Positions 11,776 through 64,000 of a stretch of DNA of 64,000 nucleotides are shown here, in pieces (position 1 is the stretch's first letter; each line of letters starts with the position of its first letter). Source of the DNA: Paenibacillus graminis (lineage in GTDB: Bacteria > Bacillota > Bacilli > Paenibacillales > Paenibacillaceae); the NCBI RefSeq assembly GCF_000758705.1, contig NZ_CP009287.1, positions 1,116,001 through 1,180,000 of the forward strand, in the 5' to 3' direction. The position numbers and the translations under genes are program-made. The notes beneath the pieces are model-generated. The model saw only the letters and a program-made list of their open reading frames with translations, searched no databases and had not been told where the DNA came from.

Positions 11776-12608
11776 TGAAAGCAAAGTCTAACGGCAGATG
11801 GAACATCGGAATTGAAGTGCTTATGATCCTGCTGGCCTTGCTGTTTCTTTCCCCATTCTACTTCCTGCTGGCGAACTCGGTAAAATCCTTTGGTGAGATT
11901 CTAAGCAATGCGGCAAGCTGGCCGCAGGAATTCATGTGGTCCAACTACACGAATGCCTGGAAGTTAGCCCGCTTCTCCGAAGCGTTCCGCAATTCGCTGA
12001 TCGTAACTATAATCTCTGTGGTTCTGATCTCGCTGTTCAGCGCAATGGCTGCTTACCGGATGGTCCGCGCCAACACACGGTTCAATCAAATTCTGCTGCT
12101 GCTGTTCGTAGCGGCGATGGTGGTTCCGTTTCAGACGATTATGATTCCGATCCTGAAAGTCGTTAATATCCTTGGGGTCAATAACTCCTTTGCCGGTCTG
12201 ATTATCTCCAATCTGGGGTTAAGTATTCCGATGGCGATCTTCCTGTTCCACGGCTTCATCAAGTCGGTTCCTCTTGAGATTGAAGAGGCGGCAACGGTCG
12301 ACGGCTGTAATCCGATCTCGGCATTCTTCCGGATCGTGCTTCCTTTGCTGAAGCCGATGCTGATGACGATCATCGTCTTGAACGCACTGGGCATCTGGAA
12401 CGATTATCTGCTCCCGTCGCTGATTCTTCAGGCGCCCGGGCTGCGCACCATTCCGCTGGCTACCTTCTCGTTCTTCGGGCAATATACGAAGCAATGGGAT
12501 ATGGCGCTTCCGGCACTGACCCTTGGGGTGGCTCCAATCGTCATTTTTTATCTGTTCATGCAGCGTTACATTGTTGAGGGAATAGCGGCCGGCTCGGTGA
12601 AGGGTTAA
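11775..12608 (+). CDS. Sugar ABC transporter permease (MalG/UgpE type)
   Basis: This 277-residue partner permease overlaps the previous gene by one base (TAATG), implying coupled translation. About six membrane helices are visible. The EAA motif reads EEAATVDGCNPISAFFRIVL, and the C-terminus FMQRYIVEGIAAGSVKG is typical of CUT1-family permeases. With the 293-residue subunit it would form the heterodimeric channel for oligosaccharide uptake. Confidence 0.93.
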   Translation: MKAKSNGRWNIGIEVLMILLALLFLSPFYFLLANSVKSFGEILSNAASWPQEFMWSNYTNAWKLARFSEAFRNSLIVTIISVVLISLFSAMAAYRMVRANTRFNQILLLLFVAAMVVPFQTIMIPILKVVNILGVNNSFAGLIISNLGLSIPMAIFLFHGFIKSVPLEIEEAATVDGCNPISAFFRIVLPLLKPMLMTIIVLNALGIWNDYLLPSLILQAPGLRTIPLATFSFFGQYTKQWDMALPALTLGVAPIVIFYLFMQRYIVEGIAAGSVKG

Positions 12609-12667
12609 TTCCCGGGCCCCCGTTCCAAATATAACAGCAGTTAATTTATTCTAGGGGGAAATTAGAA

Positions 12668-47659: not shown

Positions 47660-49475
47660 GTGCTGTCTCTCCTCGTAAGTTAGTGGGCAGGGAATGCTCC
47701 TCCTGGACCGGAATCTCCCAGACAATCTCTGTCCGGAAGCCCCCCAGCGGCGATTCCGTGAAATGCAGAGCGGATTGATTGCCGAACTGGTGAATGAGCC
47801 GCTGATTCGTATTCCAAAGACCGCAGCCCATCTCCTCCTGCAGCGGCTCCCGCATCTTGCGGTTGAGCGCTTCCTGCTGCTCCGGGCTTAGACCCGGTCC
47901 GTCGTCGTCGATATACACCCGGCAGCAGCCGCCGGAGATCCCGCCGCTGATCCTGATTTCACCGGAGCTGTAAGACTTGCCGACCCCGTGGATGACGGAG
48001 TTCTCCACAATCGGCTGCAGGAGAAGGCGGGGGATAGAATAGCCCAGCATTTCCTGCGGGATATCAATGTGATACTCGATGCGGCCATTTCGCAGCTTTT
48101 GAATATCCAGATAGTTGACGAGCAGTTTGACTTCATCGTTCAAGGTGGCTGTATCCCGCTCCATCCGGGTCGTATAGCGATAGTAGGCGCTGAGATTATA
48201 GGCCATCGATACGACGGCTTCCTCATCCTTCATCTGGGCCATGTTGATAATATAACCCAGGCAATTGTAGAGAAAATGCGGATTGATCTGGGCTTGGAGC
48301 TGCTTCAGGGTGGCTTCCCGGGCCCGGATTTTTTCGTTGAAGACATTTTCGATGAGATCCTGAATCTGATGGGACATGTCATTGAACCGGTAGAAGAGGA
48401 ACGAGAATTCGTTATGATCCTCCGAGTGAAGGCGTACGGAATAGTCGCCCCGCTGCACCCGCCGGAGTCCTTTGATCAGTTTTTTGATGGGCCGCTGCAC
48501 ATTCTGGTAGAGCAAAATGGAGGCCGAAATTCCCACAACAAACAGCAGCAGCATGGATACATAGAATAAATCGCGGCTGACAGATATAGGCCCGAGGATG
48601 CGGTCAAGTGGCACAACGTCAACCAGATACCATTCCAGATAAGAGGATTTGACGGAGCTGACCAGATAATTTTTATGTCCCAGACTGATTACGTGCTGCG
48701 TGCTGCTGTCCGGCGAATGCTTATCCAGATAACCGATCAATTCAGCAGTTAACTTCTGGTCCGCGGTACGGTTCAGGATCGGCGTTTCGCCTTTGTGATA
48801 GAAGAACGGGTCCCCCTGTCCCCCCGTTTTATAGGTATCCAGCATGTTCTGGATATTCTCCGAACTGAAGCTGGCCTCAACCACCAGATCGCTTCCGGTA
48901 AGCGTTCCCTGCGGGGCGATAGAATCGCTATGGAACCAGTAAAAAGCCTTGGATTTGCTGGAGGAATCCGTTTCGTCATCACTGTAGGTCCATTTGCCAC
49001 TCATATTTTGAATCAGGTAATTTTCATCATACCCGGTGGGTTTGTCGTAATTAGAGATGACATCCTTGTTCTGCTGGGAATATACAGCGTACCTGGAAGG
49101 CCAGACGTCGGTTAAGCCGGACTGAAGCATCATCTTCTCCCGAATGACAAAACGGGTCTGCATCCGGTCATAGCGGTCCTCCCAGATGCCCAGGCCGTTG
49201 AATTTCCGCACATTCGGGTCCTTGGAGAACACCAGGCTGAAATCCATCATCTGGTTGATCCGTGAATCAATCTGGCTGGACAAGAAAGTAAGCTGTTTGG
49301 TGTTAGACTCCTGCAGCTCTTTGCTTACCACATCGAAGGTGACGTTGTTTGAATACGTATACACAATAATGATCGGCACAAACAGTACAATAATCAGACT
49401 GTTCATTTTGGCGAATAAACTGAATCTGCTCCAGGATTTTTCTTTCACGATCATAAAAGCTTGGCTAAAACCCAT
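47640..49475 (-). CDS. YesM-type sensor histidine kinase
   Basis: This 611-residue kinase starts at ATG 49475, seven bases after GGAGGG. TM1 is at about 22-42, then an extracellular sensor with long polar loops, TM2 at about 303-323, HAMP, His_kinase with His400 in QAQINPHFLYNCLG, and an ATPase domain with PIVENSVIHGVG and DDDGPGL. It pairs with the YesN regulator directly downstream and is divergent from two LplB/LplC-type permease genes, so an extracellular sugar is the likely signal. Confidence 0.93.
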   Translation of the reverse strand: MGFSQAFMIVKEKSWSRFSLFAKMNSLIIVLFVPIIIVYTYSNNVTFDVVSKELQESNTKQLTFLSSQIDSRINQMMDFSLVFSKDPNVRKFNGLGIWEDRYDRMQTRFVIREKMMLQSGLTDVWPSRYAVYSQQNKDVISNYDKPTGYDENYLIQNMSGKWTYSDDETDSSSKSKAFYWFHSDSIAPQGTLTGSDLVVEASFSSENIQNMLDTYKTGGQGDPFFYHKGETPILNRTADQKLTAELIGYLDKHSPDSSTQHVISLGHKNYLVSSVKSSYLEWYLVDVVPLDRILGPISVSRDLFYVSMLLLFVVGISASILLYQNVQRPIKKLIKGLRRVQRGDYSVRLHSEDHNEFSFLFYRFNDMSHQIQDLIENVFNEKIRAREATLKQLQAQINPHFLYNCLGYIINMAQMKDEEAVVSMAYNLSAYYRYTTRMERDTATLNDEVKLLVNYLDIQKLRNGRIEYHIDIPQEMLGYSIPRLLLQPIVENSVIHGVGKSYSSGEIRISGGISGGCCRVYIDDDGPGLSPEQQEALNRKMREPLQEEMGCGLWNTNQRLIHQFGNQSALHFTESPLGGFRTEIVWEIPVQEEHSLPTNLRGETAHANDHC

Positions 49476-49620
49476 TTTTGTCCCTCCAGACAATGCCCCT
49501 AATAAATCCCTATGTGAGCCTAACAAAGTAATATAGTCAAAGCTCAGAAATGCTTGCTACTATTTATATCAGAGATTCATACAACACACAAAATAATTTT
49601 TTTGAAAGCGGGAGAGAGCG

Positions 49621-50571
49621 ATGGAAGCTAACACTATACAGCAGGTCAATCCTGGAAAAACGCCGCGCTTATCGGGGAAGAAGAGGGTTAAGCAGCCGTG
49701 GATGCTCCACTTTATGGTGCTGCCGGCGGCGGTTATGGTGTTTATATTTTCTTATATTCCCATGGGTGGAATCCTTATGGCCTTTCAGGATTATAAGCCG
49801 AAGCTCGGGCTATTAGGCTCCCCTTGGGTAGGACTGAAACATTTCGAATACATGTGGGAGAACGATTACTTCCTGCAGATTACCTGGAATACACTGTTCT
49901 TTGCCGGCACTAAAATAATCATGAACTTGATTATCCCGTTTTTCTTCGCTTTACTGCTCAATGAGGTCAGAAAAATGGCGCTCAAAAGAACCATCCAGAC
50001 GCTGGTCTACCTGCCGCACTTTCTATCCTGGGTTACTCTTTCGGGGATTCTGATTGACATGCTTGCCCAGACGGGGCTCATCAACCAGTTCATTTCCAGT
50101 GTCTTCGGCATTAAGCCGATATTCTTCCTGGGCGACGGCAGCTGGTTCCGGTTCACGATCATTTTCAGTGATGTCTGGAAGGAATTCGGGTTCAACATGA
50201 TTATCTTCCTGGCCGCGCTGTCCGGAATCAGTCCCTCCCTGTATGAAGCTGCGGAAGTGGATGGGGCAGGGCGCTGGAAACAGACGGTCTATATTACCAT
50301 TCCGGCGCTGATCCCGATTGCGATTGTGGTAGCCACCCTGGCACTGGGCAACGTGCTGAACGCGAACTTTGACCAGGTGTTCAACCTGTACAGTCCTTTG
50401 ATCTATCAGCAAGGCGATATTATTGACACGTTTGTCTACAGAGAAGGTCTCCTCAGCGGACAGTTCAGCTTTGCTACGGCCGTGAATTTGTTCAAATCGG
50501 CGATAAGCTTAATTCTGATCGTGATCTCCTATCGGCTGGCGTACCGTTTTGCCGGCTACAGAATTTTCTAG
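49621..50571 (+). CDS. LplB-type ABC transporter permease
   Basis: This 316-residue membrane subunit has six helices and a polar N-terminal tail. The EAA loop reads YEAAEVDGAGRWKQTVYITI. Length and sequence (MVLPAAVMVFIFSYIPMGGI) match LplB/YtcP-type permeases of the CUT1 group. ATG follows GGGAGAGAG. It begins a two-gene operon with the next permease; its binding protein is probably encoded at 44263-45951 and its ATPase elsewhere. Confidence 0.92.
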   Translation: MEANTIQQVNPGKTPRLSGKKRVKQPWMLHFMVLPAAVMVFIFSYIPMGGILMAFQDYKPKLGLLGSPWVGLKHFEYMWENDYFLQITWNTLFFAGTKIIMNLIIPFFFALLLNEVRKMALKRTIQTLVYLPHFLSWVTLSGILIDMLAQTGLINQFISSVFGIKPIFFLGDGSWFRFTIIFSDVWKEFGFNMIIFLAALSGISPSLYEAAEVDGAGRWKQTVYITIPALIPIAIVVATLALGNVLNANFDQVFNLYSPLIYQQGDIIDTFVYREGLLSGQFSFATAVNLFKSAISLILIVISYRLAYRFAGYRIF

Positions 50572-50586
50572 AAAGGATGACATCCC

Positions 50587-51459
50587 ATGTATCACAAAAC
50601 ACTGTCCTACCGCGTATTCAGCGTATTCAATAATGTCTTCCTGACGCTTATTTCCGTACTGTGCCTGCTTCCGCTCTTTCATCTGCTGATGGTGTCGCTC
50701 AGTTCAACGGCTCCGGCCAATGCCGGGCTGGTGACCTTTTGGCCGATCGGATTCACCCTGGAAGCCTATGCAAAAACGTTTGACAACGCCAACTTCCTCT
50801 CCTCCCTGTGGGTGTCGGTAGAACGTACCGTGCTGGGAACGGCAATGGCTTTGGTGGTGAACACCATTGCTGCCTATGCACTCTCCAAGGAAACGCATGT
50901 TTTTCGGGCACGCAATATTTACCTTTGGTATTTTGTCATCACGATGCTGTTCAGCGGCGGCCTGATTCCCGGCTACATCCTGATTCTGAAGCTTGGGCTG
51001 ATGGATTCCCTGATGGCGCTGATCCTTCCGGGACTGGTGGCGGTCTTCAATATCATCCTGCTGCTGAATTTCTTCCGGACGGTGCCCAAAGATCTCGAAG
51101 AAGCCGCCTTTATTGACGGGGCAGGGCATTTCCGGACCTTTTACAGCGTGTACCTGCCGGTTTCCATGCCCGTGCTGGCCACGGTCTCCTTATTCATTAT
51201 GGTTGGGCACTGGAATGCATATTTTGACGGGATTATCTATATCAAGGATGCTTCTAAGCTCCCGCTGGCGACCTTTATGCAGACCATTATCGTGCAGGCC
51301 GACATGTCGAAGCTTGATCCGGCTGCCGTAGCCAATCTGTCGCAGCGTACTATCCGGGCATCACAGATATTTATCAGCGCCTTGCCGATTCTGCTGGTCT
51401 ATCCTTTTTTACAGCGGTATTTCGTAACCGGGATTGTGGTCGGTGCTGTAAAAGAATAG
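50587..51459 (+). CDS. LplC-type ABC transporter permease
   Basis: This 290-residue partner permease has six helices, the EAA loop EEAAFIDGAGHFRTFYSVYL, and the C-terminus YPFLQRYFVTGIVVGAVKE typical of LplC/YtcP proteins. It follows the previous gene by 15 bp, after AAAGGATG. It ends at a clear terminator. Confidence 0.92.
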   Translation: MYHKTLSYRVFSVFNNVFLTLISVLCLLPLFHLLMVSLSSTAPANAGLVTFWPIGFTLEAYAKTFDNANFLSSLWVSVERTVLGTAMALVVNTIAAYALSKETHVFRARNIYLWYFVITMLFSGGLIPGYILILKLGLMDSLMALILPGLVAVFNIILLLNFFRTVPKDLEEAAFIDGAGHFRTFYSVYLPVSMPVLATVSLFIMVGHWNAYFDGIIYIKDASKLPLATFMQTIIVQADMSKLDPAAVANLSQRTIRASQIFISALPILLVYPFLQRYFVTGIVVGAVKE

Positions 51460-52024: not shown

Positions 52025-53815
52025 TTATGGATTAGGGATTGGATTCGTACTCCCCAATGATTCTACTATAAATACAGGCACGTATTCCTCTCCGGCATCG
52101 GTCCCCGCATAATCATAGCCGTACTGGAACTGGCCGGTTGCCAAGGCAGGCCCGGTTACGGTACCCACATTTCCTTGCAGCGCCAGATAACGCCCACCCG
52201 CGATGGCCACTGGTCTGCCGGTGGTATCAATATAAATATCAACCTGCAAGGTTACAGTCTCCAGAGGGTGAAGCTCCAGCTCCGAGGCGTCGATTAGCGG
52301 ATACTCCTGATAGATTTCAGCAAATTGGTAAACGCCATTCGTCTGGCGGTATATCGCTGTCTGGCCTTCCGAACCTTCCCCCATATCCGCATTGGCGACG
52401 CGGATGGAAGCATCATCCGGCTGCAGCTTGTAGCTGCTGCCGGCAAACGAGAAGAGCAGGGAGATTCCTTCAGGCTTGATGGTATAGCCCGCGAACGAAG
52501 TCCGCCCATCTTCGCGGCTGCCTTCAGCGACCACAACCGGCACTCCGGCAAGAGCGGAGAGCTGGTCATCAAAAGCAAGGCGGCTCAGCGTCTCAAAGCC
52601 GGGAATAACCTCTCCGGTCCTTGTAGTAACAGCCCCGTCTTCGCTCATGTCCGCATAGTACAGCTGTCCGCTGCTGTCCGTTCCGGCGACAGCGAGTCTG
52701 ACTCCGTATTTTCCGCTGACAGAAGTGGTCAAGACATATTTGCCCGGCGTTTCTCCGCCGGGAAGGAGACGCGCAGGCTCGGCCATATTCCATGCGAGCT
52801 GTGCAGCGGCAATTTCTGCCGTTGTGTCCTGAAGCGGGGACAGGTCGCTATAGCGTTGAATAGCCTCGGCGTACCCGCCGTTTCGGACCAGCCTCGCTGC
52901 ACCCCGGAGCAGCTTCGCGGCGGTGCTGTCGATCCGGGACAGCACCTTGGAGGAAGCCAGGCCAGCCGAAGCGGCATATTTGCGGTATGCCGCAGCATGA
53001 GCGGAGAAGGCGGCAATCTGGCCGCTGTCCATGTCTTTGCTGAGGATAAGCTTGGCGCTTTCCTCTATCTGGCTGGCTATCCAGGGAGCCGTATAGCTGT
53101 GGCTGCTGTAGGCATCGGCAAGAGACAAGGCGTAATCCAGCATGGGGGAGAAGCTGCCCGCTGCTGCAAGCGCCTTAAGCCGGGTGATGTCATAGGTTTT
53201 GAACTCCAAAGCCAGCAGCTCTTTTTTGGCGTCTGCCCCTCCTAAGTACACATCGGGAATGCGCAGCAGATTCCATTTGAAGATGTCTGCTTCATTAATG
53301 GCGCTGCTGCTCCGGCTCCGGCCCGCCGCCAGTTCGGCAAGAAACTGCACCTTGAATTGCTGGAAGCCTGTTCCGAGCTGATCAGAAACGCCTGAATCCG
53401 CCGACAGCTGGCGATAGTAGGACTCATAGGGACCGCCAGATTTCATATATTGGCTTTTCAGACTCAGCAGGGAGGCATAGCTCTCCATGAAGCCGTCAAA
53501 ATCTTTAGTCGTCAGCTGGTCTTCAATTTTCAGCTTAAGCAGTTCCAGTCCGCTGCGGATCGCTGTAACCGGAGCCAGCTCTTGTAATCTTGCGGCGGTC
53601 TCCGCTTCCCTGTAGTGAATGGAATCATTTGCTTGCGCCAGACGGTACTGATTTTCGGCGGCAACCAGGTCACCGGCGGCGTAGAGCCGGCCGGCTTCCC
53701 GGACCGTCCCGATCTTGCTGTGGAGCCTGATGCCCTTCTGTCCCAGCAGGACCAGCATCAATATACACAAAATGATCATAATATTCCGCAGGGATAAGGC
53801 TTGTTTGATCGTCAT
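52025..53815 (-). CDS. 596-residue single-TM extracellular protein of the vWA-tubulin locus
   Basis: A short cytoplasmic N-terminus and one membrane helix (about 10-26) are followed by roughly 570 residues predicted outside. The region after the helix is helical with a TPR-like feel (AGRLYAAGDLVAAENQYRLA; YRKYAASAGLASSK), and the C-terminal 230 residues are beta-rich with repeated FAGYTIKPEG- and VTLQVDIYIDTTG-like strands. I do not recognise the family. It is the last gene of a minus operon that is divergent from the vWA/tubulin operon, which suggests a shared assembly. No lipobox is present. Confidence 0.8.
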   Translation of the reverse strand: MTIKQALSLRNIMIILCILMLVLLGQKGIRLHSKIGTVREAGRLYAAGDLVAAENQYRLAQANDSIHYREAETAARLQELAPVTAIRSGLELLKLKIEDQLTTKDFDGFMESYASLLSLKSQYMKSGGPYESYYRQLSADSGVSDQLGTGFQQFKVQFLAELAAGRSRSSSAINEADIFKWNLLRIPDVYLGGADAKKELLALEFKTYDITRLKALAAAGSFSPMLDYALSLADAYSSHSYTAPWIASQIEESAKLILSKDMDSGQIAAFSAHAAAYRKYAASAGLASSKVLSRIDSTAAKLLRGAARLVRNGGYAEAIQRYSDLSPLQDTTAEIAAAQLAWNMAEPARLLPGGETPGKYVLTTSVSGKYGVRLAVAGTDSSGQLYYADMSEDGAVTTRTGEVIPGFETLSRLAFDDQLSALAGVPVVVAEGSREDGRTSFAGYTIKPEGISLLFSFAGSSYKLQPDDASIRVANADMGEGSEGQTAIYRQTNGVYQFAEIYQEYPLIDASELELHPLETVTLQVDIYIDTTGRPVAIAGGRYLALQGNVGTVTGPALATGQFQYGYDYAGTDAGEEYVPVFIVESLGSTNPIPNP

Positions 53816-53869
53816 ATTATAGTAGCCTCTCTGTAAATTACATTACATGTCCGGCTTGCGGTACTCTAT

Positions 53870-54799
53870 TTAGAAATCGGGGTCCCAGCGGTACTTGGCT
53901 TCGCGGACTTCCGACACTTTGAGATCCAGGCCATTCCAGGCCTCATACGGACTGGAGGCGATCATTTTGGACAACCGCAAAAAACGGTCCTTGGGCAGCT
54001 CTTGTATGTATCTTCCAATCATAGAGGAGTAGAGCAGCACGTAACGCTTTAACCGCACAGCTGCTGCGGCCACCGCAGCCAGAATCGCTGTCCCTTTGTC
54101 CATTTGAAGAATCTGCACCTCATAGGTTTTGACATAGCGTAAAGTGCGGTCCTTGATAAGCTCGGGCCGCACTTTGGCAATCTCACCGATATATTCGGCC
54201 AGCAGCGGCTCGAAATCCTTGAGCAGCAGCTGCTCAAGCTCCAGTTGCATGTCCTTGCGCAGCTGGAAGCCGTGGAGCAGGGCAATGCGCTGGCGGGCGA
54301 CCCGGTCGCCACGGAGCAGAATGGAGATTTCGCGCAGCTTCTCATAGGCCAGCACATCGTTCTCGCGCAGAACGGATACTGCCTCCTGGCGGTTGATCTC
54401 CAGGCCGTCCCGGATGCTGTCAATGCTGCGGCCAAGCAGCGCATTCAGTGCATACAGATTTTCGTTCTGGCGCACTTTACGCTGCGTAAGGAGTAGCAGT
54501 CCGGCCAATACGATTCCGCCGGCCCCGCACAGCGCCATCTGCTGCAGGCTTTGACCAAAATAGACCGCCCCCAAAGTCAGCAGGAGGATGAACAGGAGCC
54601 GGGTATGCATTTTGCGTCCGGCAAGGGTAACGGCGTTCTGCTCTACTGCCGTCAGGGCCGCACGGCCGCATTGGCCGCACCGGTCTTCACTGAGTGCGGT
54701 ATAACGGCCGCAGCGGCGGCAGATGCGCAGCTTGTCATAGGCATACCGCGGAGTCTTGAATGGCCGGAACGTCACGGGTTTCTTGTTATTTACGGGCAT
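53870..54799 (-). CDS. Zinc-ribbon membrane protein of the vWA-tubulin locus
   Basis: This 309-residue protein has a cytoplasmic zinc ribbon (Cys27, Cys30, Cys41, Cys44 in ICRRCGRY and RCGQCGR), two adjacent membrane helices (about 66-82 and 86-104), and a long helical cytoplasmic tail with repeated Leu/Ile-rich helices. I do not recognise the family. Its ATG overlaps the stop of the small membrane peptide gene, so the two are coupled; the 596-residue gene follows 54 bp downstream. It may link the membrane parts to cytoplasmic partners such as the tubulin-like proteins. Confidence 0.8.
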   Translation of the reverse strand: MPVNNKKPVTFRPFKTPRYAYDKLRICRRCGRYTALSEDRCGQCGRAALTAVEQNAVTLAGRKMHTRLLFILLLTLGAVYFGQSLQQMALCGAGGIVLAGLLLLTQRKVRQNENLYALNALLGRSIDSIRDGLEINRQEAVSVLRENDVLAYEKLREISILLRGDRVARQRIALLHGFQLRKDMQLELEQLLLKDFEPLLAEYIGEIAKVRPELIKDRTLRYVKTYEVQILQMDKGTAILAAVAAAAVRLKRYVLLYSSMIGRYIQELPKDRFLRLSKMIASSPYEAWNGLDLKVSEVREAKYRWDPDF

Positions 54800-54938
54800 G
54801 GTCGCCTCCGTTCAGCGCAGCCAGCAGCCGCTCATCAATGTCATCACGGGTCAGCGGCTTGCGCTGGCGTGAAGCATAAATGAGAATCTGAATGACAGCA
54901 TAAAGAAACGTAATCCCGAGAATGGCGTATGAAATCAT
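54786..54938 (-). CDS. 50-residue single-TM peptide of the vWA-tubulin locus
   Basis: MISYAILGITFLYAVIQILI begins a 50-residue peptide with one membrane helix (2-22) and a charged tail ending NGGDHARK. The ribosome site AAGGAAGAG is properly placed. The stop codon overlaps the ATG of the zinc-ribbon gene, so it is the first gene of the minus operon. Function unknown; the tail is predicted to be cytoplasmic. Confidence 0.75.
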   Translation of the reverse strand: MISYAILGITFLYAVIQILIYASRQRKPLTRDDIDERLLAALNGGDHARK

Positions 54939-55233
54939 GGAACTCTTCCTTTCTTCTTGGCAGCAGGGCGACCCGGGGTGCGGAGTTTAGCCTTGGAATG
55001 GCAGGGCAGCAATGCAAACAACGTTTTTATCCAAATTTCAGGAACGTAGTCTATACTAAGGCAGTTGAATGAATTCCTGAATAACGACTCTTAGAGCCAG
55101 CCCCGGTCCTGCGGTCCTAAAGTTGAAGTTTACAAGGTTTAATTATATCATAATGGCATGCTATTGACAGAATTTAGCTATACTGACGACTCTGCCGTAC
55201 CTGACCTAATTTAACACAAGAGGAGCCCTATTT
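54939..55233. promoter_or_regulatory. Divergent promoter region of the vWA-tubulin locus
   Basis: This 295-bp region separates the two operons. A TTGACA box lies at 55164-55169, but the TATACT that follows (55179-55184) is too close for a standard promoter, so the rightward start is unclear. The region is AT-rich near 55135-55160 and holds no repeat array. Regulation is unknown. Confidence 0.4.
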
Positions 55234-57051
55234 ATGCTTCGTACACCGTTTAATCATTTCAAGACAGCCAAGAAGATACTGCGGCCTATTGCTCTGCTGC
55301 TGCTGGTATTGTGCATTTCTGCCGCGCCATTTGCGTCCGGCAGAGCGAGTGCAGCATCGCCCGCGCCCTCTCATATTGACGCTGTACTGCTGATCGATGT
55401 CAGCAACTCCATGAATAAGAGCGACAAGAATAATATCGCGGGTGAAGCGATGAAAATGTTCATAGATATGCTGTCGGCGCAAGGTGATAAGGTCGGAATT
55501 GTGGCCTACACCGACAAGGTCCAGCGGGAGAAGGCGCTGCTGCAGATTGGCTCTGCCGCCGACAAGCAGGATTTGAAGGACTTCATTGACGGCCTGGACC
55601 GCGGAGCCTACACCGATATTGCCGTCGGGATGAAAGAGGCCGTGAAGGTGCTGGAGAACGGCAGCGATCCGGGGCATGAGCCGATGATCGTGATGCTGGC
55701 GGACGGCAACAATGACCTTAACGAAGCAACCGGCCGTACGCAGAGCCAGTCGGACCAGGAGCTGGATGCTGCTGTGGAAACGGCCAAGCAGAAGGGCTAT
55801 CCGGTCTATACGATCGGGCTGAACGCCAACGGCAAGCTGAACAAGGAGATTCTGGCCGGGTTGTCCAATAAAACGTCCGGCAAGGCGTTCACCACCGATT
55901 CGGCGGATGATCTGCCGCAGATTCTCAGTGAGATTTTTGCCGACCATTTGAAACTGAAGGTTGTTCCGGTGCAGTCCATTACGGCGAACGGCAGCTACCA
56001 GGAGGTCACAGTTAATGTACCCAACGGCAGTGTGCTGGAGGCCAATATTTCCATTATGTCGGCACAGCCTGTTACCGCGAAACTGACAGATCCATCCGGC
56101 AAGGAAGCGGCTATCCCCTCGAACGGTGTGCTGCTCTCCAAATCCAGCACCTACAGCCTGATCAAGCTGCTGTCGCCGGAGCAGGGGGACTGGAAGCTTC
56201 AGGTGAAAGGCGTGCCGAAGGACAAAATCGATATCAATCTCGTGTTCAACTATGATCTGGAGCTGAAGCTGGACGCGCTCCCGTCCAAGACTTACAAGAA
56301 GGGCGATACCGTAGAAATCTCCTCCCACCTGTTCAGCAATGGGGCTCAGGTAACGCTCAGCAGCTTATATCAGGATATGAAGGCGGTGCTGCTCGCGACA
56401 GATACCGATACGGGTAAGGTGCAGGAGCTTCCGATGGATAATTCGGGTGCGGTGTTCAAGGGCTCCTTTGAGATTCCGGAGGGCCATAACTATGAACTGA
56501 AGGTGCGGGCGGAGGAGAGCAGCTTCTACCGCGAAAGCGATGTGCTCACGATCAATGCCAAGACGGGTGCGGTGGCCACAAGCCCGCCTGCTGGAGCAGG
56601 GGGCACTGAACCGGTACAGGAACAGTCTTCATCCAAAACTCTCTATTATATCATTGGCGGGATTGTGCTGGTATTGGCGGCGGCTGTGGTGTTGTGGCTG
56701 CTGCGCCAAAAATCAAACCGCGGCTTTGTCGGGCAGATGGTAGTGGAGGTGCTGGACGGCAACACTGGCGAGAAGACCTATCCGCAGTATAAGAAGCTGT
56801 CGGCCTTCAGAGGCAAATTTACACTCCACCAGCTGCTGCAGCTGGCGCCGGAGCTGAAGGAGAGCGAGAAGCTTGTGTTCACTCCAGGCAAAAATGACCG
56901 CCTGATGCTGCGCGGCAGCGAAGAGATATCTGTTGAACGGTCCGGACGTGTGGTCGATACGGCACGCGGTCTGGAACTGAAGAGCGGGGACCGCATTTCC
57001 GTAGCGCTGCAGACAGTAGACAAGACCATTTTACTTGAGTATTTGATATAA
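55234..57051 (+). CDS. Extracellular vWA protein with cytoplasmic tail
   Basis: The 605-residue protein has a signal peptide (cut near residue 42), a vWA domain (about 48-240) with complete MIDAS: Asp55-Ser57-Ser59 in LLIDVSNSMNKSDK, Thr in GAYTDIAVGM, and Asp in MLADGNND. Beta-rich domains follow, then a membrane helix (about 468-491) and a 110-residue cytoplasmic beta domain (GDRISVALQTVDKTILLEY). The vWA part therefore faces outside and the tail can contact cytoplasmic partners. The tubulin-like gene follows by 12 bp. Topology is inferred. Confidence 0.9.
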   Translation: MLRTPFNHFKTAKKILRPIALLLLVLCISAAPFASGRASAASPAPSHIDAVLLIDVSNSMNKSDKNNIAGEAMKMFIDMLSAQGDKVGIVAYTDKVQREKALLQIGSAADKQDLKDFIDGLDRGAYTDIAVGMKEAVKVLENGSDPGHEPMIVMLADGNNDLNEATGRTQSQSDQELDAAVETAKQKGYPVYTIGLNANGKLNKEILAGLSNKTSGKAFTTDSADDLPQILSEIFADHLKLKVVPVQSITANGSYQEVTVNVPNGSVLEANISIMSAQPVTAKLTDPSGKEAAIPSNGVLLSKSSTYSLIKLLSPEQGDWKLQVKGVPKDKIDINLVFNYDLELKLDALPSKTYKKGDTVEISSHLFSNGAQVTLSSLYQDMKAVLLATDTDTGKVQELPMDNSGAVFKGSFEIPEGHNYELKVRAEESSFYRESDVLTINAKTGAVATSPPAGAGGTEPVQEQSSSKTLYYIIGGIVLVLAAAVVLWLLRQKSNRGFVGQMVVEVLDGNTGEKTYPQYKKLSAFRGKFTLHQLLQLAPELKESEKLVFTPGKNDRLMLRGSEEISVERSGRVVDTARGLELKSGDRISVALQTVDKTILLEYLI

Positions 57052-57063
57052 GGGGGAGCACTC

Positions 57064-60000
57064 ATGAAACCGGTAGTAAGAGAACATATTCAGCAGCTCG
57101 ACGTATCGCTGGGCGGAGGAATCGTCAGCGACAAAATCAGAGTAGATACCATTGACAACCCGATCCTCATCATTGGCCTGGGGGGCACGGGCATCGACGC
57201 CCTGCTGCGGCTGAAATACCAGATTAACCGCCGCTTCAAGCTGCCTGAAGATCCGTTGTCCAAGAAGAAACGGGATAAGCCGGACAACGTGGAGTTCCTG
57301 GCGTTTGAGACGAATGAGCAGGACCGCGGCAAAAAATACAAGGGCATCGGCCTCGACCCGCAGAATGAATTCGTGCTGCTGGCCAATGCTGAGATTGGCG
57401 GACTTCTGCAGAACCGCAGTATTCTTGAACCGTACATTACGGACTGGCTGTCGCCTGAGCTGAGCATTACCGATGGCATGAACGGGGCCGCCGGGGTGCG
57501 CCAGGCCGGACGGCTGCTGCTGTTCACGAAAATCAATCAGGTTGTGTCAGCTATCGACAAGAAGATTAAGACCCTTTCTGTGGGCACCAGCAAAAAGCTG
57601 ATGGTATTCCTGCTTACCGGCTTGTCCGGGGGAACGGGCAGCGGCTCGTTCCTGGATATTGCCTATATTGTGCGCGGGATTATTGAACGCGACTACGGTT
57701 CGGCCGGCATCGACCGTGTGAATACGCTCGGTTATTTGTTCACGCCGGATGTAAACCTGTCTAACAAAAGCCTCAGCGAGCATACCCGTGAATATATCCG
57801 CAAGAACGGCTATGCAGCGCTCAAGGAACTGGATTACTGGATGAATGTCGACAGCCGGGGCGAGCGGTTCCGCCAGCAGTACGGCAATATTTTGACGGTG
57901 AATTCACCGCTGCCTCCGTTCAACCTGTGCCATCTGATCTCTGCGACCAATACTGAAGGCAAGCTGCTGGAGAATGCCTATGACTACTGCATGAACGTGA
58001 CGGCGGAGAATATTACGAACTTCATGGCCAGCGAGGAAAAGCAGTCGGGCGAGGAATTCGCGATCCACGACTATATCAGCAACATCCGCACGAACATTGC
58101 GCAGATGAACAAGACGTATCCTGCCAATTATGAATACAACATCATCGGCGCTTCTTCTGCGGTGCTGCCGATTGAGGAAATGACGACGTATCTGGCATTC
58201 CGCCTGTTCGACAAGATGGACAAAATGTTCCAGCAGGCACCGGGGCAGGAGGATGTGGAGAAGCTGGCGCGCAAGCTGGGCATCGATCTCGACAGCATGA
58301 TCAAAACCTTCGAGTCCCGTGTGCCGGAGCCGCTGCCCGGCTATGAGAACAGCGAGCGCCTGAACCACAGCAATGTCATCAAACACCAGGTGGTGGATAT
58401 GGATACGGAGCTGGAACAGAACTTTCTGGCCCGTGCCCGTGAGGAATATATCAAGTCCAAGAAGCAGCTCCCCGGAGAAATCACCGGACGTTTCGGAGAA
58501 GAGCTGGAGCGTATCTTCCTGCATCCCGAGCAGGGTCCATTCTACGTGTCGCGGCTGCTCTATACCGAGAAGGGCTTCTGTATTCTGAAGCTGATCCAGT
58601 CCTATATCGAAGCGCTGCGCGAGAGCCTGCTGCGGCTGCCGCGTGATATTGAGACGGCGCAGGACAGCGCGCAGGAGAAGCTGGGCGATGCGCGGAGCGC
58701 TTTTGTCTCCAAGGAAAAGAAGAAAAATGCCTATATCGAAGCCAAAATCAATGAATACTGGCTGCACGCCGACGTGGAACGCACGGAGCAGATGATTGAA
58801 TTCTATGAAGATCTGTTTGAGCTGCTGAATGAAGAGAATAACCGGATCTATGGGGTGTTTACGGAGATTCTCAGCGCGCTCAGCACGATCTTTGAGAAGA
58901 ATGGCGACATCCTGATCAACGGTGAGGAGCAGGCCGACCACAAAGGCAACAAAACCTACTATTGGAATATCGTCAATGTGCCGGACATTGCGTCAACCAT
59001 CTCCAAGGTGATGGACCAGAAGGACGGCGACGATCTGATCCGCGACTTCACGCGGGAGATGCTGAAGCATTCGGGGCGCTGGGTCAAGGAACAGGAAATT
59101 GACATTGTACGCTCCATTTCCGAGTTTCTGAGCGATAAGTTCGGCGACCTGATTACCCGTTCCATGGAGGAATTCCTGGTAATGAAATACGGACGCGAGG
59201 AGCCGCTCGACAAATTCGTGGAGCGGATTATCGCCGGACGTCTGGATGAGGATGCCGTACCGATTTTCCACCTGAGCAACAGCTCCGGCAGTCTGCACTT
59301 CCCGTCCTGGGGATTTGTTTCTGTGCCGGTCAAAGCGCCGGGCATCCTGAAGGGAATCCGCAATTACCAGAACAATGCGCTGGGCAAATCGCAGTTTACC
59401 ATTAAGGAAAGCCAGGTCAAAAACCGGATTTTCTGGCTGAATACGCGCAACGGGGTGCCGCTGTTCGTATATACGCCGCTGCGGGTGTACGAAGAGAATT
59501 ATGAGCGGACCATCCTCGACAAGGAAGGAATCGGACGCCATCTGGTAATGACCGACAAGAACAACTGGACGTACCTGCCTTCGCCGATTCCGGAAAAATC
59601 CTGGGGCGATACTTATGTCAACAACCGTGTCCGTGAGTACAATGCCAGAGTGCGGGCTGATTTTGCCAGAGCGCTGGAGAATGGGGTCATTATCGAGAAA
59701 GGCCTCGACGAAAATACGAGCAGCCGTTTCTCGGTCATCCTCACAAAGGCGTTTGATGTGGATAAAATGCTCAGCGGCTATGACCTGCAGCTTGGCATGT
59801 CGCGCCCAAATCTGGGGGAAGTGAAAAAAGCGGCCGACGAGCTGAAGTCGCTGCGTGCAAACGGACTGGAACGCGAAGGCGTTAAGGACATTTTTGGCAG
59901 CATTAACAAGGAAATGGCGCAGGAGAATCTAATCCGTTCGCCGCAGCTGATTGCGAGTGTCCGCGAGGAATTGGCCAAATATGACGCGCTGGCAGCCAAA

Positions 60001-60453
60001 GCGGCTGAACTGGAAGGGCTGCTTCATCAATATCTTGACGAAGACAATTGGATCGACCAGTTCATTGAGGCGCTGTACACCGACACTATCACCAAAAAAG
60101 GTGCACTGTACGTCTATGACCGCGACGAGGAAGAGGACGCTTGGGAGCCGTTCGCCAACTTAATGAAGGAACGGAGCTATGTGGAGTATGCCGTCTACCG
60201 GCATTTCCGCGGGCTGGATGAGAAAAGCCGCAGCATACTGCTGCGCAAGGCGGCGCGCCGTGCCGGGGAAATGACTGCTGCCGAGGATGTCACTCCTCTG
60301 CTGTATAAGCTGGAAGGATTGTACGTCTCCTTCCTGGAAGCGCGCGACAGCCTGGAATACGAGCGGGTAGAGCATGCGGATGGCGATGAAATGTACAGCT
60401 TCTACCAAAGCCTGACCGGCAAGCTCGGCAGCATCCGCAGAAAGCTGAAGTAA
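57064..60453 (+). CDS. Tubulin-like GTPase (Tubulin_2 type)
   Basis: The 1129-residue protein has a tubulin/FtsZ-fold N-terminal half. The first nucleotide loop is ILIIGLGGTGIDALLR (about 34-49) and the GTP signature T4 loop is LSGGTGSGSFLDIAYIV (187-203). A second-domain segment has ALKELDYWM and FNLCHLISATNTEGKLL. The C-terminal 700 residues are largely helical with predicted coiled-coil stretches (for example near 540-620). Members of this large bacterial tubulin-like family often lie beside vWA genes. It is cytoplasmic and may form GTP-dependent filaments. It follows the vWA gene by 12 bp and is followed by a paralogue after 4 bp. Confidence 0.9.
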   Translation: MKPVVREHIQQLDVSLGGGIVSDKIRVDTIDNPILIIGLGGTGIDALLRLKYQINRRFKLPEDPLSKKKRDKPDNVEFLAFETNEQDRGKKYKGIGLDPQNEFVLLANAEIGGLLQNRSILEPYITDWLSPELSITDGMNGAAGVRQAGRLLLFTKINQVVSAIDKKIKTLSVGTSKKLMVFLLTGLSGGTGSGSFLDIAYIVRGIIERDYGSAGIDRVNTLGYLFTPDVNLSNKSLSEHTREYIRKNGYAALKELDYWMNVDSRGERFRQQYGNILTVNSPLPPFNLCHLISATNTEGKLLENAYDYCMNVTAENITNFMASEEKQSGEEFAIHDYISNIRTNIAQMNKTYPANYEYNIIGASSAVLPIEEMTTYLAFRLFDKMDKMFQQAPGQEDVEKLARKLGIDLDSMIKTFESRVPEPLPGYENSERLNHSNVIKHQVVDMDTELEQNFLARAREEYIKSKKQLPGEITGRFGEELERIFLHPEQGPFYVSRLLYTEKGFCILKLIQSYIEALRESLLRLPRDIETAQDSAQEKLGDARSAFVSKEKKKNAYIEAKINEYWLHADVERTEQMIEFYEDLFELLNEENNRIYGVFTEILSALSTIFEKNGDILINGEEQADHKGNKTYYWNIVNVPDIASTISKVMDQKDGDDLIRDFTREMLKHSGRWVKEQEIDIVRSISEFLSDKFGDLITRSMEEFLVMKYGREEPLDKFVERIIAGRLDEDAVPIFHLSNSSGSLHFPSWGFVSVPVKAPGILKGIRNYQNNALGKSQFTIKESQVKNRIFWLNTRNGVPLFVYTPLRVYEENYERTILDKEGIGRHLVMTDKNNWTYLPSPIPEKSWGDTYVNNRVREYNARVRADFARALENGVIIEKGLDENTSSRFSVILTKAFDVDKMLSGYDLQLGMSRPNLGEVKKAADELKSLRANGLEREGVKDIFGSINKEMAQENLIRSPQLIASVREELAKYDALAAKAAELEGLLHQYLDEDNWIDQFIEALYTDTITKKGALYVYDRDEEEDAWEPFANLMKERSYVEYAVYRHFRGLDEKSRSILLRKAARRAGEMTAAEDVTPLLYKLEGLYVSFLEARDSLEYERVEHADGDEMYSFYQSLTGKLGSIRRKLK

Positions 60454-60457
60454 GCCT

Positions 60458-62890
60458 ATGATCAAAGCACAGGCATTAACCTATGCAGAACAATATGCGG
60501 CGCAGGAAGAAGCGCAGCGGAGCAAAGGGGACGGGCGCAGCAGCATCCATTATCCCGCTCTGTTCCTGTTCCTGGGCGATAAGGTGGCTTCGGCTATCGG
60601 CCCGGTGCTGGACGGCTGTGAGCGGAAATGGGACAATGCGGGCGGGATTATGGCGCTTCATGCCGCTTCCGCCTGCGCAGAGCAGGCTGGTGACGGAAGC
60701 CCGTCACAGCCTGAGTACGCCAGCAGGAACCGGGTGCAGGCCGAGGGCGGCAGAAAAGAGCGGGTTATGGGCATGGCCCTGCCGGAAACAGCGGGCCGTG
60801 ATCCCCGCACAGTCCGTCAGGATATCTACCGCGAGTTTCACGAAGACAGCCGGTTTCTGGCCGCGATGAACCGCAGCCTGCGGCGCTTAAGCAACAGCAT
60901 AGCGGATTATGGACGGCTGTACTCTTCTTTTGACGTTATCCATCTCTCCATCATTACGCGGGTCGATGACCCGCTTAATGTGCTGCTGCCGGAGGTTGCC
61001 CTGTTGGCCCGGGCTGTGCTCAGCCAGTCGTTCAAGTCGGTGCAGACTGACCTGTATGCGCTGATCAATGAGCGGGAGCAGGGGGACAACTTCGGTTACT
61101 CCAGCTCGGTAGGGCTGGCTTTTCTGCGTGAGCTGGACGGGATGCAGCAAACGGATTACACCCTCAGCGCTCCGCTGCTGGTCACGGAAGACGGATTGTC
61201 CATTCCGGTGGCCCATGGGCCTTCCGCACTTTTTGATCTTGTCTACCTGCTCTCGGACAAAAACGAACGGGGCATGATGTCATCTCATGGCATGGACGAC
61301 AACTATGAAATTATTGCCCACATCAGCCTGCTCAAGAACCGAGTCCGCCCGGCAACAGATACGGCTACCGGACATGGCGGTTACAATAATATGACTTTCA
61401 AAAGCGGCATCCGGGGCAGCTCTGGAAGGCAGGGTTATGCTTCTGCCGGTTTCTCTGCGGTACGCCGGCCCAACCGGCAAATCGCTCTTGCAGTGCTGTA
61501 TCATGCTTTTCATTATCTGGCTGCGAAGCTGCAGGAGGGCGGGGCGGCCAGCCTGCGCGAGCGGCAGGCGCTGCTTGGCCTGAGCGCCGATTCCCTGCGT
61601 GAACGGGCAGCGGCGCTGCTGCCGGATGAAGCGGGCATTGAAGAGATGACCGGGCTGATGAGCCATGGCCGGCCCTCCTATAGCGAGCTGAAGCCGTTGT
61701 CGCTGCGCGAAGCCGAGGCGCTGCTGTTCGGAGACGGCGGGCAGGCCTATTTCCGCAGCAATTTTGCGGAGGTGACCGCCAGAAGGGTGGCGGACACCGA
61801 CCCTGCCCGCGAGTGGGCCGCTGTGCTGTCGGCCCAGGAGAAGGCGGTTCCGCCGCTGACGTTCTACCAGCTGGCGGAATGGACCGCCGAGCAGCCTGGC
61901 GGCGGCAGTGTGCTGCATGCGCTGCGCCAGCATATGGCCGGGCTGCGCGCGGCGATTCTCTCTGCGCAGGAGGAGCTGGAGCAGCTCTACGCGGAGAGCG
62001 TCGAGCGACAGCCGTTCCAGCGCGTGCCGCTGCTGGACAAACGGACCGTGCGCAATTTCATTCATTATTTATTTGCGCAGCTGTACAGCAGGAAATATGA
62101 GCTGCTGCGCATGGAGAGCGAACTTGCGCTGTGCCTGCGCTACGACGCGGCGCTGGAGCAGCTGCACGCGGAGAGCAAAGCCAAGGTGCAGACCATGGAA
62201 GCGCTGGAAGAGGAGCTGCACGGTCTGGCGCTTGCCAGCATCGGGCGGACCAGCGAGACCGTGGACCAGAACATTATGGAATATTACCGCAATGTCACAG
62301 AAGAGGTTATGCGTGATATTGAAGCGCGGCGCGGTCCCGGGATCTTCTTCAGCGACCGCTTCCTGGGCAGCGTTTCGGAGCTGCTGGGCCAGGGCAATGC
62401 GGCAGCAGCGGAACGGCTGATAGAGCTGTGCCGCCGCGAGCTGCTGACGGCGGAGGCGTTCGCGCTGCCTTTCGAGGAAGAGCTGCTGCGGCGCGCCAAT
62501 GTTGCGGCAGCTTACGACAACCGCGAGATTGTCTCGCGGGAGGAGCTGTTCAAGCGGCTCTACCGCAGCCTGGAGGACGAGGCCAGCATCAACGTCCGCC
62601 TCTTCGAATACACGCAGGAGCACCGCCACGAGGAGAAATATTTCTTCGGCGACAGCAGCTCCGAATTCCTGCGTTATGCCTTTGGTGCGGATGAGACGAC
62701 ACGCATCTACCGCCTCGGCTTCGTGCATGAGCAGCGCAGAAGCGGTATTGAGAAGCTGAACCTGATGGGCGGCTTCCATCTGGAGGATCTGCTCTACTAC
62801 CGCAACGGCAAAGTCTACTATGAGACCTACGCCGCCAGCGGCTACCGGCTGCACGGTATAGCCGAGGAACAGCTGCCGGAGCTGAGGTAA
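60458..62890 (+). CDS. Probable inactive tubulin-fold paralogue
   Basis: Similar proteins may be labelled transcription factor TFIID in databases, which the sequence does not support. I align it with the tubulin-like neighbour: ALFLFLGDKVASAIGPVLDG (34-53) matches the first nucleotide-loop region; IHLSIITRVDDPLNVLLPEV (161-180) matches the strand and T4 loop, but GGTGSGS is replaced by VDDPLNV; then AFLRELDGM (221-229) and FDLVYLLSDKNERGMM (259-274) match ALKELDYWM and FNLCHLISATNTEGKLL at similar spacing. The rest is helical. It probably lost GTP binding and serves as a partner or cap of the active tubulin-like protein. Confidence 0.7.
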   Translation: MIKAQALTYAEQYAAQEEAQRSKGDGRSSIHYPALFLFLGDKVASAIGPVLDGCERKWDNAGGIMALHAASACAEQAGDGSPSQPEYASRNRVQAEGGRKERVMGMALPETAGRDPRTVRQDIYREFHEDSRFLAAMNRSLRRLSNSIADYGRLYSSFDVIHLSIITRVDDPLNVLLPEVALLARAVLSQSFKSVQTDLYALINEREQGDNFGYSSSVGLAFLRELDGMQQTDYTLSAPLLVTEDGLSIPVAHGPSALFDLVYLLSDKNERGMMSSHGMDDNYEIIAHISLLKNRVRPATDTATGHGGYNNMTFKSGIRGSSGRQGYASAGFSAVRRPNRQIALAVLYHAFHYLAAKLQEGGAASLRERQALLGLSADSLRERAAALLPDEAGIEEMTGLMSHGRPSYSELKPLSLREAEALLFGDGGQAYFRSNFAEVTARRVADTDPAREWAAVLSAQEKAVPPLTFYQLAEWTAEQPGGGSVLHALRQHMAGLRAAILSAQEELEQLYAESVERQPFQRVPLLDKRTVRNFIHYLFAQLYSRKYELLRMESELALCLRYDAALEQLHAESKAKVQTMEALEEELHGLALASIGRTSETVDQNIMEYYRNVTEEVMRDIEARRGPGIFFSDRFLGSVSELLGQGNAAAAERLIELCRRELLTAEAFALPFEEELLRRANVAAAYDNREIVSREELFKRLYRSLEDEASINVRLFEYTQEHRHEEKYFFGDSSSEFLRYAFGADETTRIYRLGFVHEQRRSGIEKLNLMGGFHLEDLLYYRNGKVYYETYAASGYRLHGIAEEQLPELR

Positions 62891-62904
62891 CCCGCGGCGA
62901 AGGA

Positions 62905-63105
62905 GCAATCTATTGCAGCATGTGCACTAGAACGGCTCCGAATCCGCGGGGAAAGAGCAAACTACTGCACTTTGTGCAGCAGATTTCAACGGATTCGCCT
63001 GAATGTGGCTTTTCTTGCATATTCCATTGCACGAAATGCAATAGAATAGGAATATGGCCTCTTTTCGAGCCATTCTGCTGCATTAAATACATTAGAATGG
63101 CAGCT
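62905..63105. repeat. Degenerate hairpin array inside the tubulin operon
   Basis: Four units share a TGCA-(4-5)-TGCA core followed by AGAA: TATTGCAGCATGTGCACTAG (62911), TACTGCACTTTGTGCAGCAG (62963), CATTGCACGAAATGCAATAG (63025) and CTGCTGCATTAAATACATTA (63075). Spacing is 52, 62 and 51 bp. Units 2 and 3 form perfect small stems (CTGCAC-TTT-GTGCAG; ATTGCA-CGAAA-TGCAAT). The array fills the gap between the tubulin paralogue and the second vWA gene. Confidence 0.65.
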
Positions 63106-63175
63106 GCTCCTCAGACTGCGCCATCAGAGATTATATGTGCTTAAATCTAGTTTTTCCCGGAAAGGGTGGATAGCG

Positions 63176-64000
63176 ATGCAGCGTAAAATCAATCTGCTTT
63201 TGCTTCTCTTCAGCCTGCTAGGCGGTGGAGTGGCCTTTGTGCTAGGCGAGCTGCTGCTGGACCAAAGGCCGTACGATCTGCCGTCGATTGTGCTGGTCGG
63301 CATCTATTTTGCTATAGTGGCACTTGGGGTCGGCCTGGGCTGCCTGCTAGCGGAGATGATCTCGCCAAAATTGAACGGCTTGTCGTGGAAGCAGCGGTAT
63401 CTGGGTTTTTCGTGGAAGATGCTGCCTTTGACGCTGGTGCTGCTGTTCGCGGTGGGCTCCGTAATGGAGTTTGTGTATGAGCTGAACTTCGGCGGCGTGA
63501 AGCCGGTCAAAGATGTGGTCATGGTCATTGATGACTCCGGCAGCATGATGCAGAGCGATCCGGACAACAGCCGCTATAAGGCAGCCGAATCACTGGTGCA
63601 GCGCATGGATGAAGATAACAAGGTGGCTGTGGTCACGTTCAGTCAGGACGCCACGGTGGTTCAGCCGCTGATCCCGTTGTCCAGCTCAGCGAACCGTGAG
63701 CAGGTAACATCAGTTATTAATAGTCTGAAGACCACAGATGGCGGTACAAATATCAGCGGTGCGCTCACAGAAGCCATGGGTGTAATTAACAGTGACAATC
63801 AGTCTGGACGGGGAGCCATGGTAATCCTGCTGTCCGACGGCTTCAGCCAGTTTGACACCTCTAAGGAACTTACGGAGTACGTAGACCGCGGGATTGCCGT
63901 AAATACGATTGGCCTGGCGCTGGATGATCCGTCAGGATCAGCGTTGCTCCAGGATATTGCCACCACTACCGGCGGGCAATATTATGATGTGACCAAGGCA
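63176..64000 (+). CDS. Second vWA membrane protein, cut by the window end
   Basis: The 275 residues visible have three membrane helices (about 5-27, 37-60 and 82-101). By the positive-inside rule, the vWA domain that follows is outside. Its MIDAS is complete: Asp119-Ser121-Ser123 in VMVIDDSGSMMQ, Thr in TTDGGTNISG, and Asp in LLSDGFSQF. It starts at ATG 63176 after AAAGGGTGG. It is in the same direction as the tubulin-like genes but separated by the hairpin array. The frame is open at the right edge, so more domains may follow. Confidence 0.88.
   Translation, partial: MQRKINLLLLLFSLLGGGVAFVLGELLLDQRPYDLPSIVLVGIYFAIVALGVGLGCLLAEMISPKLNGLSWKQRYLGFSWKMLPLTLVLLFAVGSVMEFVYELNFGGVKPVKDVVMVIDDSGSMMQSDPDNSRYKAAESLVQRMDEDNKVAVVTFSQDATVVQPLIPLSSSANREQVTSVINSLKTTDGGTNISGALTEAMGVINSDNQSGRGAMVILLSDGFSQFDTSKELTEYVDRGIAVNTIGLALDDPSGSALLQDIATTTGGQYYDVTKA

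Follow-up and report, generated by a model that had tools for sequence, protein, structure and literature searches.

A divergently transcribed set of ten genes in Paenibacillus graminis appears to encode a single machine, in which extracellular proteins are linked through the membrane to internal tubulin-like proteins. The stretch analysed, called the window here, is the 64,000-nucleotide segment C1:1116001-1180000 of NZ_CP009287.1, the one contig (C1) of a 7.17 Mb genome. The ten-gene unit consists of a leftward operon, L596-Zn309-P50, and a divergent rightward operon, vWA1-Tub1-Tub2-vWA2-B211-DO-GTPase-GAP1. We assign a probability of about 0.5 to the reading that its products form a tubulin scaffold, anchored in the membrane and switched by GTP, to which extracellular vWA sensors are coupled.

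A previous sequence-only reading of the window proposed seven genes for this locus, L596 through vWA2, and all seven were confirmed as open frames. It placed the end of the unit at position 64000; the unit instead extends to C1:1186197 (window coordinate 70197) and includes three more genes, which encode the 211-aa B211, a 420-aa zinc-ribbon DO-GTPase, and GAP1, a 1027-aa GAP1-N2/GAP1-M protein.

Linkage and distribution of the ten genes

Linkage was examined in 148 genomes of the family, 250 of the class and 299 of the phylum, and gene content in a sample of loci with Tub1, the best 80 of 292. Whether the leftward genes belong to the locus had been set beforehand as a point on which the earlier proposal could fail; linkage across the family, class and phylum genomes shows that they do belong. 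Full-length Tub1, Zn309 and GAP1-N2 occurred in the same 71 of the 148 family genomes. Zn309 was divergent from Tub1, at a distance of 2135-4927 bases, in 71/71, and GAP1 was downstream on the same strand in 70/70, lying on another contig in the 71st genome. In one additional genome, G088, both partners were absent and Tub1 was matched just weakly and in part, over query residues 110-285 (39.9 bits, 27% identity). Among the class genomes, 39/250 had some Tubulin_2 match, which was full-domain (>=254 bits) in 33 and at <=31 bits in the other six; the same 33 genomes have full-domain Tubulin_2 and Zn309. Twelve of these 33 genomes are outside the family, and the divergent Zn309-Tub1 arrangement was found in 12/12. 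In the phylum set, full-length Zn309 was confined to the 5 genomes (of 299) with this type of Tub1, the four other Zn309 matches being partial and weak, and a partial, weak match was also seen in G032. Zn309 was absent from three phylum genomes whose Tubulin_2 protein is full-domain but distant, and the trio was not in the stretches read around distant phylum Tubulin_2 genes (L139, L140 and L141).

That the leftward trio adjoins the tubulin-like genes merely by chance could be argued from L596, which 29 of the 71 locus-bearing genomes lack. For Zn309 the idea is refuted on linkage, given its presence in 71/71, its divergent position beside Tub1 in all 12 class genomes outside the family, and the finding of Tub1 in every genome of the three sets (148, 250 and 299 searched) that had a full-length Zn309. 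We therefore find a chance association scarcely credible.

The gene order also extends beyond the family. Three loci from one other family (L135, L136 and L137), Brevibacillus-like by inference, have all ten genes in the same order, and L144 has nine of the ten, P50 not having been called. An Aneurinibacillus-like locus, L138, has the full set; its Zn309 and vWA2 genes (3381-4321 and 12295-13070) are each broken into two frames, from either a sequencing error or a real interruption. The gene order kept in other families is far beyond chance. Zn309 and P50 were present in 78/80 sampled loci, the exceptions (L020 and L021) being short contigs that end before the site. L596 was in 40/80 loci, one of them a fragment, and L037 has no space for it. 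In the family set L596 was matched in 42/148 genomes, all within the 71 that bear the locus, one of them (G059) having it in pieces only. Thus Zn309 and P50 are constant partners and L596 is a facultative member. Because L596 is in all five loci read outside the family (L135, L136, L137, L138 and L144), it is probably ancestral and was then lost in some Paenibacillaceae. One genome has L596 in fragments next to the other genes of the locus (L056 6096-6647 and G059:C560:13894-14240), which gives the impression of a gene in the course of loss, and in L074 and L078 L596 sits about 2.4 kb farther from Zn309 than elsewhere.

Mean identities over 60 of the 80 loci were 83% for DO-GTPase, 80% for Tub1, 61% for vWA1, 52% for both vWA2 and B211, 49% for Tub2, 44% for Zn309 and 39% for GAP1; for P50 the value was 40% (42 loci) and for L596 33% (23 loci). 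The inner GTPase core is the part held tightest. Genes flanking the unit were common to a minority of loci, the largest group being 16/78. Since the flanking genes are common to so few loci, the conserved unit ends at the trio on one side and at GAP1 on the other.

Membrane proteins and topology

Topology was derived from hydropathy for transmembrane (TM) helices and the positive-inside rule. Six of the ten proteins have predicted TM helices, and none was found by hydropathy in Tub1, Tub2, B211 or DO-GTPase. The vWA1 gene (55234-57051, + strand) encodes a 605-aa protein (PF00092, E=2.6e-17) predicted to have an N-terminal signal or anchor, an extracellular vWA domain at residues 49-231, a further ectodomain, a TM helix at 472-490 and a cytoplasmic tail at 491-605. 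The MIDAS residues D55/S57/S59 are invariant in 88/88 sequences. Identity is 73% in the vWA domain and 68% in the cytoplasmic tail, and only 20% in the linker before the TM helix; conserved ends with a variable linker are what binding of partners at both ends would predict. In one locus of a family genome (L145 7225-10832, genome G061) two tandem vWA1 copies are found in the operon. The vWA2 gene (63176-64453, + strand; the window stops at 64000) encodes 425 aa in full, predicted as three TM helices, an extracellular vWA domain and three further TM helices, with the MIDAS residues D119/S121/S123 invariant in 86/86 sequences.

The leftward operon is on the - strand. Zn309 (53870-54799, 309 aa) is predicted to have a cytoplasmic zinc ribbon (C27, C30, C41 and C44), a TM hairpin and a cytoplasmic all-helical domain, so that both ends are inside. 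The four cysteines are invariant in 41/41 sequences, and the AlphaFold2 model (pLDDT 93.8) contains the zinc ribbon, two long helices and the helical domain; a comparison of the helical domain with the PDB gave no clear match. P50 (54786-54938, 50 aa), whose reading frame runs 14 bases into the start of Zn309, has one TM helix at 2-20 and a charged tail that is probably cytoplasmic. L596 (52025-53815, 596 aa) has a predicted N-terminal TM anchor at 6-24 and a large extracellular part. TPR_2 was matched in 6/34 L596 members (best E 0.0014) and not in the window's own copy; the first half of L596 may thus be TPR-like, and the second half, judged by eye, is presumed to be beta-rich.

It is likely from these predictions that vWA1, vWA2, L596 and the tail of GAP1 reach outside the cell. 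The sequence-only reading had placed two metal-binding adhesion domains outside and the tubulin-fold proteins inside. Hydropathy and charge agree with that placement of the vWA domains and the tubulins; adhesion is a putative role for both vWA domains.

The tubulin-like pair

Tub1 (57064-60453, + strand, 1129 aa) contains a Tubulin_2/FtsZl1 GTPase domain (PF13809, E=2e-75) with glycine loops at residues 38-43 and 186-194, followed by helical regions. The G-rich loop residues G189, G190, T191, G192 and G194 are invariant in 44/44 sequences. In the predicted model residues 31-366 take an FtsZ/CetZ/TubZ-like fold, so that structure prediction bore out the tubulin fold claimed for this protein from its sequence. 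Tub1 has this predicted fold in common with FtsZ, CetZ and TubZ, but differs from them in its length of 1129 aa, its long helical regions, its loop-less paralogue and its operon of membrane-protein genes. In the search that gave the 80 sampled loci, the nearest named relatives by Tub1 were from Paenibacillus, that of P. jilunlii being 99% identical. Among the best 120 of 587 protein matches, a group about 70% identical, 1127-1132 aa in length, was mostly labelled Brevibacillus or Aneurinibacillus and also included Paenibacillus mucilaginosus. A database protein (P0073) 79% identical to Tub1 and labelled Yersinia pestis is most likely due to contamination or misassignment and was not used.

Tub2 (60458-62890, + strand, 810 aa) gave a PF13809 match in the window with E=0.02 and 14.6 bits, under the curated cut-off of 27. 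Among Tub2 members Tubulin_2 was matched in 16/26 at E<=0.1, the best at 1.1e-5, and Tub2 aligned with Tub1 by hhalign with a probability of 95% (E 3.6e-8). In the alignment of members no GTP-binding loops were recognisable at the Tub1 loop positions. The proposal of an inactive tubulin-fold paralogue is in keeping with these results: Tub2 is homologous to Tub1 and, as far as its sequence indicates, would be a pseudo-GTPase lacking recognisable GTP-binding loops. In the gap between Tub2 and vWA2 (62910-63144), alike short open frames on both strands suggest an inverted repeat.

The features of the pair also bear on the possibility that no filament is made, and that Tub1, Tub2 and DO-GTPase form a cytoplasmic complex, switched by GTP, that would fold, load or export polymers or proteins of the envelope, with vWA1, vWA2 and L596 acting as outer chaperones. 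If Tub2 binds no GTP, canonical polymerisation is not open to it; the long helical regions of Tub1 and its almost invariable length point to a scaffold, and there is the weak TPR signal in L596. Nevertheless, no secretion ATPase, channel or polymer synthase was recognised in the set, and we consider a platform of this kind improbable.

Relation to described systems

DO-GTPase adjoins GAP1 upstream, their frames overlapping by 4 bases, and matches PF19993 (DO-GTPase2) with 28.5 bits against a cut-off of 27. It has two CxxC pairs, C24/C27 and C110/C113, conserved in 84/84 sequences, which suffices for one zinc site. The GAP1 protein matches GAP1-N2 (PF20013, E=6.2e-39) and GAP1-M (PF20014, E=1.6e-24) and has one TM helix, beyond which residues 786-1027 form a low-complexity, polar C-terminal extension; identity in this outer tail is 19%.

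The comparisons that follow cover portions of the main texts of two papers. In the Firmicutes GAP1-N2 system of Kaur et al. 2020 (PMC7159879), a DO-GTPase and a GAP1-N2 protein with a polar tail are accompanied by two tubulin-type and two vWA genes; one vWA gene is multi-TM with its vWA domain extracellular, and the GTPase usually has two N-terminal zinc ribbons. The locus studied here has in common with it the DO-GTPase gene, with GAP1-N2/GAP1-M and its polar C-terminal extension next in order, the two tubulin-type genes, and the two vWA genes, one multi-TM. The rightward operon thus fits the Firmicutes tubulin-type GAP1-N2 system, six of the ten genes matching. Kaur et al. 2020 also include a GAP1-C domain, a vWA-YtkA fusion and an FNIII-repeat protein among the system's features. 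FNIII and YtkA were not recovered here by Pfam: B211 is the operon's unassigned component, but 0/25 of its members match any FNIII family at E<=0.1, and vWA1 has no YtkA match at E<=1. GAP1 likewise has no Pfam match named GAP1-C at E<=1, although whether Pfam has such a model was not checked. Further differences are the Zn309-P50-L596 trio, which is absent from the portions of that text compared, and a mainly vertical inheritance in Paenibacillaceae, where the locus is not evidently a mobile island.

Operons with an FtsZl1 Tubulin_2 gene, a vWA gene and a GTPase gene were described by Makarova & Koonin 2010 (PMC2875224), who list Brevibacillus brevis among the species of their Figure 1 and give associated families the names A1-A2 and B1-B9; the trio may be among these. 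Those operons resemble this one in having a Tubulin_2 gene adjoining a vWA gene and a diverged GTPase gene in the operon, and differ in that GAP1 is not named in the portions of the paper compared. Hence the statement in the sequence-only reading that the set matched no described system does not hold, for the rightward half fits Kaur et al. 2020 and Tubulin_2/vWA operons were described in 2010. As far as those texts go, what is added here is the constant divergent Zn309-P50 pair with facultative L596, a near-vertical history of the locus, and a Tub2 that has lost the loops. In PMC, which lacks bioRxiv and most subscription journals, no experimental study of FtsZl1/Tubulin_2 from Bacilli was evident by title or abstract among the matches listed.

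Makarova & Koonin 2010 proposed a role in membrane remodelling, in which, for this locus, Tub1 filaments would bend or pinch the cytoplasmic membrane, as in a vesicle machine. Their gene-context argument, the FtsZ/CetZ-like fold of Tub1 and the six proteins with predicted TM helices are all consistent with it. Against it, no membrane-scission domain was recognised in the set, and a reviewer of that paper judged the data very difficult to decide on. We think remodelling of this sort unlikely.

Inheritance

Trees of Tub1 and of FtsA+FtsZ were compared for 40 of the 71 locus-bearing genomes. The trees have 21/37 splits in common, the mean for 500 label shuffles being 0.15 and the maximum 2, and the Tub1 tree recovers 6/7 testable genera as monophyletic. 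Identities of Tub1 and of FtsZ over 70 genomes were correlated (rho 0.42, p 0.0003). The Tub1 tree is largely congruent with that of FtsA+FtsZ, from which we conclude that descent has been mainly vertical, but flanking genes vary between clades. An old chromosomal module, mostly vertical and repeatedly lost, is the simplest account.

These results bear on the alternative, taken from Kaur et al. 2020, that the locus is a conflict system directed against invaders, in which DO-GTPase and GAP1 would set a sensing threshold and a tubulin polymer would contain the infected cell or the invader. The gene content fits the Firmicutes tubulin theme of that paper, presence is patchy (71/148 family genomes), and the outer tail of GAP1 and L596 evolve fast. 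On the other side, the Tub1 tree largely follows FtsA+FtsZ, there is one full-length copy per genome with the gene order fixed in three families, and no toxin-like or variable effector gene was recognised among the ten. None of the ten proteins (0/10) matches PADLOC-DB at E<=0.01, a result that a library without the system would also give. Mainly vertical descent fits a mobile conflict system badly and favours a physiological role for this branch. The defence role that the sequence-only reading had allowed is possible, but is disfavoured by the comparison of the Tub1 and FtsA+FtsZ trees; we consider it unlikely.

Control region and flanking genes

The region between the operons contains a block (about 55120-55179, not assigned to a strand) that is highly conserved among close relatives; the alignment comprised 15 sequences, from the window and 14 chosen loci, whose flanks have diverged. 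The block contains two divergent promoter-like sites, TTGAAG/TATCAT at 55123-55151 on the + strand and CTGTCA/TATAAT at 55170-55142 on the - strand, the -10 hexamers of which overlap by two bases. Because a promoter scan found 3 sites in the region compared with 0.9 in shuffles, chance is possible and the sites alone are not evidence. A search of the genome with up to 3 mismatches allowed located the 32-base core of the block at one place only. The block is a clade-level feature, as its exact 15-base core is in 19/80 loci.

Directly left of the locus a sensor-kinase-like gene lies beside two ABC permease genes (47640-51459). Close copies of the kinase-like gene and permeases occur at this place in 3 loci, and this group was judged unrelated. 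The permeases were considered as members of the unit and rejected, with close copies (92-100% identical) in just 3/80 related loci; distant homologues of both are in L081 (25-28%), and of one each in L083 and L038. Beyond GAP1 (G000:C1:1187398-1196609; L003 4398-13609), inspection by eye showed a gene for a 1599-aa secreted-looking protein and then transporter-like genes with a duplicated ABC ATPase.

Proposed mechanism and significance

In the membrane-anchored scaffold that we favour, Tub1 would bind GTP and assemble at the membrane's inner face. Tub2, which is not expected to bind GTP in the usual way, would cap or co-assemble with Tub1, and the cytoplasmic tail of vWA1 together with the Zn309 hairpin would dock the assembly to the membrane. 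Assembly would be gated by DO-GTPase with GAP1. The two extracellular vWA domains may bind a metal-dependent ligand, such as a wall polymer, a surface, a neighbouring cell or a peptide, and relay the ligand or force state inward. Coupling of sensor to cytoskeleton in this way would organise a patch of the envelope, as a stable cell function and not a mobile defence island. In integrin I domains the vWA domain is regarded as linking contact outside the cell with the inside. A similar coupling is attributed to the vWA domain of the Pseudomonas mechanosensor PilY1; for both the likeness is in working principle only, and no pilus or integrin homology is claimed. A more specific version is offered tentatively, and is doubtful as a whole: a bacterial counterpart of sensor-to-cytoskeleton systems in which the Zn309 hairpin and P50 would keep a hetero-assembly of Tub1 and the loop-less Tub2 at the membrane, with input from the extracellular MIDAS vWA proteins and DO-GTPase/GAP1 control, the whole being an envelope organ passed on vertically in Paenibacillus, Brevibacillus and Aneurinibacillus.

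A number of observations weigh against the scaffold reading. The Tub1 model is modest (pLDDT 69.6, pTM 0.40), its best Foldseek match has an E of 1.8e-4 and a target TM-score of about 0.44, and a Tub1 sequence profile searched against the PDB gave no tubulin match. The locus is dispensable, since 77/148 family genomes are without it, and L596 is missing from 29/71 of the genomes that have it. Kaur et al. 2020, in the portions compared, class such neighbourhoods as mobile conflict systems. In the Tub1 tree genus g6 is not monophyletic, and splits conflicting with supported FtsA+FtsZ splits number 5, 4 and 2 at support levels of 0.7, 0.9 and 0.95. Finally, over the 56 genomes outside P. graminis' own genus Tub1 and FtsZ identities show no correlation (rho -0.18, p 0.19).

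In sum, the locus offers a closed parts list with clear borders and a natural pseudo-tubulin, in hosts for which laboratory strains exist, together with two strictly linked membrane partners, for one of which there is a confident model. Two opposed published readings, mobile conflict system and membrane remodelling, are made testable, and mainly vertical inheritance favours a physiological role for the system in this branch.

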